Assembly: GCA_938084715.1 (NCBI GenBank)
Contig: CALKES010000007.1
Location: 1 to 60,906 of the forward strand
Reading direction: 5' to 3'
Length of the DNA: 60,906 nucleotides
From: Candidatus Bipolaricaulota bacterium
GTDB taxonomy: Bacteria > Bipolaricaulota > Bipolaricaulia > Bipolaricaulales > Bipolaricaulaceae
Shown piece after piece: positions 46,538 through 49,018 of this stretch; within the stretch, counting starts at the first letter, position 1, and every line of letters starts with the position of its first letter. A program made the translations under genes and the position numbers. Below the pieces are notes generated by a model, which did not search any database, had not been told where the DNA came from, and worked only from the letters and a program-made list of their open reading frames with translations.

Positions 46538-47446
46538 ATGCGTAACCTTGTTCTGATCGGACTGGGAACGGTGCTGATCGCCGGAGCAGCTGTCGGGCAG
46601 CCCACGGGGGAGGAGCTTGGAACCTGGGCCCTTCGCCACTGGGACGACGTGGGAAACGGCCGCCTCGAGGCGGTCGTAGCGTGGTTCGCCCCCGAGGGCG
46701 GGGTCGCCTTCCTCGGCGGGCCAGCGGATGGGTTTCACTACGGGTCTGACATCCTCCACGCTTGGGAGGCGTTTTTCGCGGCCGTGCCGGCCCGCGGGTA
46801 CGCCCTGACCGGCGTGACCCGGGCGGTCCCCGAGGCCCGTCTCGTCTACGGAACCCTGGAGCTCGACACGGCCGGTGGCTCCGTGACGGTGGACAGCTAC
46901 CTCCGCTTCTCCGGCGATGGCAAGCTCCTCGGGGCGGACTACGTCCTCGTCCACGGCCTTGGGCCCGCGGGCCCAATCACCGACGGGAGCCTTGGGGAGG
47001 GGGAGTACCGAAACTCCGTCCAGGACATCCGAAGCGGGGTGGGCCTCCACTGGCGGAACGGGCTCGTGGTCCTCTTTGCGGCCCTGCGCAGCCCTGGCAC
47101 GGGCTGGGTATCAGCCGGGTTCGATCCCGTGAACCGGATGCAGGGGGCGAACTTCATCATCGCCGCGGTGACCCCCGCGGGCCTCGCGATCGAGGACCAC
47201 TTCGGTTCGGGGACGACGTCCCACCGGCGTGACCGCCGGGAGGACGTCCTCCGGGCCGCCGGGGCCGTGGCCGGGGGGCAAACGGTGGTCGAGTTCGTGA
47301 TCCCCCTCGATAGCCTCGACCCGGAGGACAAGCCGCTCGTTCCGGGGGGGAGCTACACGGTCCTCCTCGCCTACCACCGCTCCTCGACGTCGTTCACCAC
47401 CCTCCACACGGCGCGGGGCTCGGTGCAGATCGCCTTGGAGAAGTAG
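46538..47446 (+). CDS. Exported NTF2-like + DOMON-domain protein
   Basis: A 302-residue exported protein with signal peptide (residues 1-20). Residues ~24-135 resemble a SnoaL/NTF2-like fold (WALRHWDDVGNGRLEAVVAWF). Residues ~145-302 form a DOMON-type beta sandwich (QDIRSGVGLHWRNGLVVLFAA, GWVSAGFDP, VVEFVIPLDSLDP), a fold that binds heme b or sugars. AAGGAGG precedes ATG 46538 by 6 bases; ATG 46532 is in the same frame. The next gene starts one base after its stop, suggesting joint function in an extracytoplasmic redox step. Confidence 0.75.
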   Translation: MRNLVLIGLGTVLIAGAAVGQPTGEELGTWALRHWDDVGNGRLEAVVAWFAPEGGVAFLGGPADGFHYGSDILHAWEAFFAAVPARGYALTGVTRAVPEARLVYGTLELDTAGGSVTVDSYLRFSGDGKLLGADYVLVHGLGPAGPITDGSLGEGEYRNSVQDIRSGVGLHWRNGLVVLFAALRSPGTGWVSAGFDPVNRMQGANFIIAAVTPAGLAIEDHFGSGTTSHRRDRREDVLRAAGAVAGGQTVVEFVIPLDSLDPEDKPLVPGGSYTVLLAYHRSSTSFTTLHTARGSVQIALEK

Positions 47447-47447
47447 C

Positions 47448-47672
47448 ATGGACACTCTGCGCGAGATGGCGTACTGGCCGCTTGGGCCGTTCCCAGTCCT
47501 GTTCTACCTTGGCCTTGTGAGCTACGCCCTGCTCCTTGCCACCGGGGCCTCGATGGCCCTTCCCCGGCGGCTCAAACGCCGCCGCCCCCTCTGGCTCCAC
47601 CACGGGCTCGCCTACGCGACCGTGGCCGTGGCCACCCTCCACGCCCTCCTCGGGATCGTCGCTCGAATCTAA
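47448..47672 (+). CDS. Small two-helix membrane protein with His pair, DOMON partner
   Basis: A 74-residue protein with two hydrophobic helices (about residues 14-36 and 50-72). LHHGLAYATVAVATLHALLG places His at positions compatible with heme-b ligation, and a basic loop RRLKRRRP faces the cytoplasm. Together with the preceding DOMON protein it looks like a reduced version of cytochrome b561-DOMON electron-transfer proteins. Heme binding is inferred, not shown. A bidirectional-looking terminator follows. Confidence 0.6.
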   Translation: MDTLREMAYWPLGPFPVLFYLGLVSYALLLATGASMALPRRLKRRRPLWLHHGLAYATVAVATLHALLGIVARI

Positions 47673-47690
47673 TGCCTGGGCGTAACATGG

Positions 47691-47724
47691 CGCGGGGCCA
47701 GCGGCCGCTGGCCCCGCGTGTTTT
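47691..47724 (+). terminator. Terminator after the DOMON/two-helix operon
   Basis: A perfect 28-base palindrome (arms 47691-47704 and 47705-47718) is followed by TGTTTT. It lies between convergent genes and closes the plus-strand operon. Confidence 0.85.
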
Positions 47725-49018
47725 ACGGTTTCTCGATCTCCATCGTCATCGCCACAAGCCCGGAGAGGAGCTTGGGGTAGAAGTCCGTGGACTTCTGGGG
47801 CATCGAGACCCCGAGGTCGGCGATCTGGAGAACCTCCTCGACGCGGGTTGGGTTGAGGAGGAACGCCGCCTGCCCCTTCCCTCCGTCCACGAGGGCGACC
47901 GCCTCCTCATCCGTGTGGGCGTAGTCGACGTGGGTTCCCCGGGCGAGGACCTCGTCGTCGATCCCGAGGTACGGCTCGAGGATCCCCTTGTGGAGGACGG
48001 CGACGTCGAGCCGCTTCCAGGCCGGGGGCTGGCTTCCCGGGACGATCTCCTCGGGCCGGAGGCCCCCCCCCAGGGTGAGCCCCCAGAACTTCCCTTCGGA
48101 GTAGAGGACGAAGGCGGGCCTCTTCCCGGCCGCCCGGGCGAGGAACTCCCGGGACGCCGGAAGGGAGGGGAGCCCCTCCACCTCAAACCGCTCCCGAACC
48201 CGGTCCAGGAACGAAGGGAGGGCGAAGGGGGCCCCGGGGCGGAGGACCCGCGGGGTGGGGCGGATCACGCACCCCGGCTCCTCCACGTTGACGAGGGTCA
48301 CCGGGAGGGCGGTGAAGCTCTGGGGGGAGGCCGGCCTCCAGCCCTTCCCCAGGCACTCCCGCATGAACGCCTGGGCCGTCTCGAACCGGTGGTGCCCGTC
48401 GGCGATGTAGAGCTCCAGGGGTTTCAGGGCTTCCCGCACCGCCTCCACCGCCCCCCGGTCGGGGATGTACCAGAGCTCGTGGCGGTTCCCGAAGTCGTCC
48501 CGGGCCACGGCGTCGGGCGTGCGGGCTCCCACGGCTTCTTCGGCGGCCAGGCTCGCCCCCCGCCGCGGATCCCGGTAGAGGAGGAAGATGTGCTCGAGGT
48601 GGGCCTCCGTCGCTCGGAAGAGCTTGAGCCGGTCCTCTTTCGGGCCCCGGAGGGTGTGCTCGTGGGGCTTGGCCCCGCTTTGGGAAAGGTCGAGGAGGGC
48701 GATGATCCCCTGCCGGATGAGCTCCCGGCCGTCGTGGCGGAACGCTTGCCGGTAGAGGTAGACCCCGGGCGAGGGGTCGTGGGTGAGGACCCCCTTCTGG
48801 ATCCACTCCCGGAGAAGCGCGGCCCGGTGGGCGTAGTCGGCGGGGTCCTGGGGGGGGACCTTGGTCCCAATCAGGCGGACGTAGGAGTACGGGGACCGGC
48901 GGAGGTAGGCTGCCTCCTCCGCGGGCCCGATCCGGTCGTAGGGCTGCGTCACGACGAGGGAGAGGTCCCCCACGGTTTTGCTATAGCGGAGCCCGCGGAA
49001 GGGGTGGACGACGGCCAC
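47723..49018 (-). CDS. DUF1015-family protein
   Basis: A 431-residue DUF1015 protein. Conserved parts are the N-terminal PFRGLRYS and VTQPYDRI, SYVRLIG, the HEHTLRGPKEDRLKL segment, LYIADGHHRFETA and the C-terminal FLLNPTRVEEV. Function is not firmly established; it is often next to serA and serC, as here, which suggests a role in serine/phosphoserine metabolism. GTG or ATG near 49018 follows the serA stop by 3 bases. No phosphoserine phosphatase gene is visible in the window. Confidence 0.85.
   Translation of the reverse strand: MAVVHPFRGLRYSKTVGDLSLVVTQPYDRIGPAEEAAYLRRSPYSYVRLIGTKVPPQDPADYAHRAALLREWIQKGVLTHDPSPGVYLYRQAFRHDGRELIRQGIIALLDLSQSGAKPHEHTLRGPKEDRLKLFRATEAHLEHIFLLYRDPRRGASLAAEEAVGARTPDAVARDDFGNRHELWYIPDRGAVEAVREALKPLELYIADGHHRFETAQAFMRECLGKGWRPASPQSFTALPVTLVNVEEPGCVIRPTPRVLRPGAPFALPSFLDRVRERFEVEGLPSLPASREFLARAAGKRPAFVLYSEGKFWGLTLGGGLRPEEIVPGSQPPAWKRLDVAVLHKGILEPYLGIDDEVLARGTHVDYAHTDEEAVALVDGGKGQAAFLLNPTRVEEVLQIADLGVSMPQKSTDFYPKLLSGLVAMTMEIEKP

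Follow-up and report, generated by a model that had tools for sequence, protein, structure and literature searches.

An exported DOMON protein paired with a 74-residue two-histidine membrane hairpin in Bipolaricaulota: a candidate minimal haem-b electron conduit

In the CYBDOM proteins, represented by HYP1 and CRR of Arabidopsis and by CG8399 of insects, a DOMON domain is fused to cytochrome b561 and electrons cross the membrane to outer acceptors such as Fe(III) (PMC10784544, PMC10691727). A locus of Candidatus Bipolaricaulota bacterium raises the question of whether a comparable path could be built from much less material, since a gene for an exported DOMON protein (A) is followed there by a gene for a membrane protein of only 74 residues (B). 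The window analysed is a stretch of 60,906 nucleotides (contig CALKES010000007.1), and a preliminary description had read the pair as a stripped-down DOMON-cytochrome b561 electron path. That interpretation is partly supported. The reading that we favour, with a probability of roughly 55%, is that A and B together constitute a minimal transmembrane haem-b electron conduit in which a homodimer of B would carry two haems coupled to a haem in the DOMON domain.

Both open reading frames lie where they were first described, the stop codon of A being separated from the start codon of B by a single base (TAG-c-ATG). The strong terminator reported after the pair corresponds to a 13-pair hairpin with z = -3.1 (Table 1), although a strict consensus terminator scan missed it. 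Gene B has the size initially given, and its AlphaFold2 (AF2) model is the announced two-helix structure, a hairpin with a pLDDT of 93. Pairwise dN/dS values of 0.12-0.41 point to purifying selection on B; together with the relatives found in 35 of 100 genomes of the phylum, they identify it as a real gene.

Table 1. Positions in the window of genes A and B, their domains and conserved residues, and the downstream hairpin
Feature	Position	Strand	Basis
Gene A: 302-aa exported protein (signal peptide, NTF2/KSI-like domain, DOMON)	46538..47446	+	ORF, Pfam, AF2/Foldseek, orthologues
A, predicted signal peptide (approximate); hydrophobic stretch ending AAVGQ	46538..46600	+	By eye from sequence and orthologues
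A, predicted NTF2/KSI/SnoaL-like domain, approx. residues 23-139; another domain in f2	46604..46954	+	Foldseek to ketosteroid isomerases, weak SnoaL_2, f2 sequences
A, DOMON domain, residues 146-301	46973..47440	+	PF03351, alignment, Foldseek 4zel, 6jt6, 2ivf_C
A, Met201, predicted haem ligand, motif GFDPVNRMQGA	47138..47140	+	M in 20/20 intact B-paired DOMONs; motif type and spacing as the CYBDOM Met
A, His229, nearly invariant in the DOMON; outside the expected haem-ligand pair	47222..47224	+	Alignments
A, His290, predicted second haem ligand, just before the last strand	47405..47407	+	H in 20/20 intact B-paired DOMONs; CYBDOM spacing
Gene B: 74-aa membrane protein, two helices	47448..47672	+	ORF, 30-sequence alignment, AF2 hairpin, dN/dS
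B, helix 1, residues 17-42, invariant Gly22	47496..47573	+	Alignment, AF2
B, interhelix segment, within Arg/Lys-rich residues 38-50; predicted cytosolic	47574..47588	+	Net charge
B, helix 2, residues 48-73, invariant His51 and His65 on one face	47589..47666	+	Alignment, AF2
B, His51, invariant; predicted haem ligand, cytosol side	47598..47600	+	30 sequences
B, His65, invariant; predicted haem ligand, outer side; aligns weakly with a STEAP4 His	47640..47642	+	30 sequences
Terminator: 13-pair hairpin with a GTGTTTT tail, separating B from the convergent DUF1015 gene	47690..47726	+	Fold, z = -3.1

By its sequence A belongs to the DOMON proteins, its match to Pfam PF03351 (E = 3e-10, 40.8 bits) exceeding the curated cut-off of 32.7. 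The NTF2-like part, which had been proposed along with the DOMON, is weak by sequence, the match of the N-terminal half to SnoaL_2 (E = 0.054) remaining below the cut-off; an NTF2-like fold is nevertheless predicted by the AF2 model of A (mean pLDDT 91), which Foldseek aligned with ketosteroid isomerase (KSI) structures at TM-scores of 0.65-0.82 by target length. The same model also matched the DOMON domain of dopamine beta-hydroxylase, the cytochrome b domain of pyranose dehydrogenase (6jt6) and chain C of ethylbenzene dehydrogenase (2ivf). From the match lengths and the Pfam positions, we infer that the KSI-type matches cover the N-terminal half of A and that the DOMON and haem-b matches cover its C-terminal half.

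The expected haem ligands of CYBDOM are a Met in the motif SxDxxMGxD and a His located 84-93 residues further on (PMC10691727, PMC10784544). In A, 89 residues separate Met201 from His290, and every intact B-paired DOMON (20/20) has the pair. These two residues are the predicted haem pair, expected to match the ligands of CYBDOM and cellobiose dehydrogenase by motif and spacing; the positions were judged in this manner because sequence searches of the PDB, with whole A and with the DOMON alone, gave no DOMON relative. The suggestion that the DOMON binds haem b thus stands as a prediction from conserved candidate ligands. The Met is absent from the sole B-less A of the window's family (G022) and from several unpaired DOMON paralogues. 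One exception among the B-paired proteins, in G059, carries an internal deletion that removes the His and looks degenerate. His229 is retained even in DOMONs devoid of the Met.

Only five positions, M1, P16, G22, H51 and H65, are invariant among 30 aligned B sequences that share 26-91% identity with the B of the window. The two histidines are 14 residues apart on helix 2, on a face that also bears the small residues A55, T58, A62 and G69, and the conservation of this helix is one-sided (permutation p 0.025). Of the histidines originally pointed out in the second helix, H51 is indeed conserved, but the adjacent H52 is R, H or S in relatives and the second conserved histidine is H65. The mean net charge of residues 38-50 amounts to +5.5 and is about 0 at both ends of the protein, so that, following the positive-inside rule, the loop is predicted to be cytosolic, placing H51 near the cytosol and H65 near the outside.

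To which known cytochromes could such a hairpin be related? Ferric_reduct (PF01794) is the most consistent Pfam match of B, encountered for 20 of 23 members with a best E of 2.9e-4 and always below cut-off; the B of the window reaches 16.6 bits against a cut-off of 28 and covers positions 8-57 of 121 only. A scan of the phylum with this profile yielded seven matches, four of which fall at B loci, those to B again below cut-off. In PF01794 each of two helices carries a His pair, which makes four His in all, with fewer in short forms; B has a single His-bearing helix per chain and a dimer would provide both. Cytochrome b561 profiles (PF03188, PF01292) did not match the B of the window, and matched two of 23 relatives at E 0.016-0.02. 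By score, then, B is outside PF01794, PF01292 and PF03188, and it appears to resemble half a ferric reductase more than a cytochrome b561. In a PDB profile search B aligned weakly with STEAP4 (E 0.47), at two of its helical repeats, in each of which H65 coincides with a His, a placement that is suggestive only; unrelated channels also appeared in this search and were dismissed, their matches being weak. Foldseek found no cytochrome match for the B model, a single hairpin offering little to match. Two other identities were set aside: DUF4149, which stayed below threshold, and VKOR, likewise below threshold and in need of a conserved Cys that the B alignment lacks.

Another parallel is offered by the architecture of cytochrome b6, where one half carries two His on one helix and a packing Gly on the other, and whose AB hairpin alone is able to assemble a b6-like haem protein (PMC5730185). 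The layout of B, with two His on one helix and the Gly on the other, is the plan of half a cytochrome b, and B may work like half such a cytochrome. Two His that hold a haem from either side cannot come from a single hairpin, so that a homodimer would be expected. The idea of a stripped-down DOMON-cytochrome b561 path is supported by the exactly two His that B keeps, at the spacing of membrane dihaem cytochromes, and needs correcting as to family: B is nearest to the ferric-reductase domain and half-size, and for that reason would need to dimerize.

The linkage of the two genes was surveyed in 100 Bipolaricaulota genomes grouped in families, the window belonging to family f1. B was found in 35 of them. 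A lies directly upstream of B, with a gap of 1-11 nt, in 21 genomes (15 of f1 and six of f2); in another two genomes of f1 (G005, G029) A and B persist as interrupted remnants, and the B match of G085 is a fragment. Within f1, 17 genomes have both genes, one has A only (G022), none has B only and 22 have neither (Fisher p 2e-10, phylogeny ignored; a short A-like fragment in G014 was scored as absent). The remaining 11 genomes, six of f2 and five of f5, encode B without an adjacent A, so the linkage in relatives, named at the outset as a check on the reading, is present in many of them but not in all. The six f2 genomes have DOMON genes elsewhere, and no DOMON match occurs anywhere in the five f5 genomes; in the latter, the gene that begins some 60 bp from B, in divergent orientation, encodes an exported protein with a CHRD domain (starts being first-ATG guesses). 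The N-terminal part of this CHRD protein (HPPSxx...HYVE; loci L070, L072, L073, L074, L077) has no Pfam match. Near-exact pattern searches of contigs retrieved six loci, all from Bipolaricaulota/Acetothermia, a type of pattern that may miss diverged relatives in other phyla, and tblastn against plasmids gave no match.

In f2 the N-terminal domain of A is a different one, without Pfam match, while the DOMON and B are retained. Because of this exchange, the DOMON and B form the core of the unit and the NTF2-like domain, present in f1 and initially counted as part of it, is an add-on. Each f2 genome carries two to five DOMON proteins (loci L080, L084, L085 and L086); in several of these the DOMON is preceded by an N-terminal membrane anchor or by a longer stretch, the Met and His are kept and B is not a neighbour. 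In G005 (L058) and G029 (L082) both A and B are interrupted, and A of G003 (L065) has an internal deletion that removed the NTF2-like part and the start of the DOMON; unless assembly faults are responsible, some relatives appear to be losing the pair.

Gene neighbourhoods provide a hint of function. In most f2 genomes B is close to genes for superoxide reductase, nitroreductase, a rubrerythrin-like protein and an AhpC-type peroxiredoxin (Pfam on examples). A weak AhpC relative is found near the pair in two divergent f1 genomes, and a ferritin-family gene near B in three f5 genomes. Within the genus of the window, carbonic anhydrase and DUF1015 are the neighbours, neither of which is telling on redox. 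Neighbour genes in some families thus suggest oxidative-stress or iron chemistry. The f2 island containing B (L069, L076, L078, L079, L105-L109, L112) is also beside biotin ligase-like and MetK-like genes, recognized by eye.

DOMON genes have other membrane partners in the phylum. Related DOMON genes adjoin cytochrome b in G055 and G058; in G068 one stands beside a small multi-helix protein and a Rieske-like protein (the latter assigned by eye); a small membrane protein with its own H-x13-H helix, weakly cytochrome b561-like, is encoded after a DOMON gene in G059 and G092. The association of a DOMON with a membrane b-type cytochrome thus recurs in the phylum. The small His protein of L164 (G092:C161) and L165 (G059:C185) matches PF01292 at E = 8e-4, and its partner is a second DOMON gene, without the Met. 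No homology between B and the L164 protein was detected by hhalign, and the two small DOMON partners therefore look independent. At L087 (G058:C155, 8004-12281), the gene immediately before that of cytochrome b encodes a DOMON protein with C-terminal membrane helices; HemB and ferrochelatase are both present in this genome.

The supply of haem is the main weakness of a haem reading and the strongest evidence against it. HemB was detected in six of the 100 genomes, none of them B-bearing, and ferrochelatase in four, with a single weak match (G089) among the B-bearing ones; no B-bearing genome had AhbD over the cut-off, the partial matches in the window's genome being far below it and taken as other radical-SAM proteins. 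Organisms carrying B thus probably cannot make haem, which would have to be scavenged. Cytochrome bd was not found in B-bearing genomes, and the few families tested revealed no other recognized haem protein in the genome of the window. Cytochromes do occur in members where HemB and ferrochelatase were not found, namely cytochrome b in G055 and cytochrome bd-like and b561-type matches in several f3 genomes, which makes haem scavenging plausible in the phylum. Haem auxotrophy appears to be widespread among Bipolaricaulota. Marine sediment is reported to have yielded bacterial isolates that depend on haem (PMC11139205).

If A and B form an electron conduit, it could operate as follows. The B hairpin would have both termini outside and its Arg-rich loop inside, and two copies lying side by side would build a bundle of four helices resembling the core of a cytochrome b or a ferric reductase. 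The His51 pair would hold one haem near the cytosol and the His65 pair a second one near the outer face. The outer haem of B would then swap electrons with the Met201/His290 haem in the DOMON of exported A, as proposed for CYBDOM. Our best guess is that the conduit would connect the cytosol or quinones with an oxidant or a metal on the outside, candidate substrates being superoxide, peroxide or Fe(III), with haem obtained by scavenging. More tentatively, and at odds that fall short of even, B may be a natural half cytochrome b, a symmetric dihaem homodimer of 74-residue hairpins with imported haem and an exported haem DOMON partner, and a living example of the state that could have given rise, through duplication, to the four-helix cytochromes b.

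Other explanations weigh the same observations differently. B might be a quinone- or superoxide-reactive haem mini-cytochrome in its own right, in the manner of E. coli CybB, a minimal four-helix dihaem superoxide oxidase involved in oxidative-stress defence (PMC11869295); the exported partner, DOMON in f1 and f2 or CHRD in f5, would then be an interchangeable accessory and not an obligate carrier. The six f2 genomes with B and no adjacent A, the f5 pairing with a divergent CHRD gene and the f2 island of superoxide reductase, peroxiredoxin and rubrerythrin-like genes fit this picture, as does the precedent of CybB itself. It accords poorly with the nearly always joint gain or loss of A and B in f1, with haem ligands kept in all intact paired DOMONs and with the presence of DOMON genes elsewhere in all the f2 genomes where B is alone, and we consider it rather unlikely.

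The lack of the tested haem-synthesis genes in B-bearing genomes can also be taken at face value: the His pair of B would bind another metal or a quinone, and the DOMON a metal or sugar, or act as a plain sensor. DOMONs can bind sugars (PMC4846438), and H229 is nearly invariant besides Met201 and His290. Yet haem proteins are where this His spacing, this helix plan and this Met/His motif are found, and phylum members without detectable haem synthesis encode clear cytochromes, such as the cytochrome b of G055, scavenging being plausible; this possibility seems to us slightly less likely still. It is highly improbable that B is a mere anchor or assembly factor holding A at the membrane. B is small, the signal peptide of exported A would be its sole membrane anchor and Foldseek returned no cytochrome for B; an anchor, however, has no need of two invariant intramembrane His, kept down to 26% identity while most positions vary, and B persists without A.

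Considered as a minimal haem-b conduit, A/B would share with CYBDOM an outer DOMON with Met and His and a membrane part with His, all predicted haem ligands. It differs in being bacterial, in consisting of two genes instead of one polypeptide and in the lack of a b561-family match; B has 74 residues, two helices and two His where CYBDOM has a full b561 domain with four, and f1 A contains an extra NTF2-like domain. The ferric reductase superfamily (PF01794; FRE, NOX, STEAP, YedZ/MsrQ) is the nearest Pfam family of B and has the same His spacing on one helix, but B corresponds to roughly the first half of that domain, scores below the cut-off and has a single His-bearing helix and neither flavin nor NADPH domain. 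Each half of the four-helix core of cytochrome b6 and of bc1 cytochrome b resembles B in being a hairpin whose two His share one helix, the other helix bearing a conserved Gly; those cytochromes are single chains made of two different halves whereas B would be a symmetric homodimer, and no sequence homology has been demonstrated. Cytochrome b559 (PsbE/PsbF) holds, as B would, a haem between two small membrane proteins, one His coming from each, and differs from B as a heterodimer with one helix and one His per chain and one haem.

DOMON-bearing FRE proteins are known in some protists (PMC3591440). In terms of function, the analogues of A/B are the CYBDOM ferric reductases, LcoA-BcnA and CybB. 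The combination of a membrane protein with an exported partner in a two-gene unit is shared with LcoA-BcnA, where cytochrome b561 and a secreted lipocalin act against oxidative (lipid peroxyl) stress (PMC9113575); that partner is a YceI-type lipocalin and that cytochrome a full b561, neither of which is present in A/B. CybB is a single four-helix chain for which PMC11869295 describes no DOMON partner, unlike the two-helix, DOMON-paired B. CytbX, a designed minimal four-helix dihaem membrane cytochrome (PMC10120048), is artificial, single-chained and without sequence kinship to B.

If B binds haem as a dimer, it would rank among the smallest natural transmembrane electron wires, and a natural protein would become available for testing the proposal that cytochrome b arose when a two-helix hairpin was duplicated. 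For the organisms themselves, the finding would mean that apparent haem auxotrophs import haem for A/B, and in an uncultured phylum electron transfer across the membrane would be linked to the chemistry of oxidative stress or iron.
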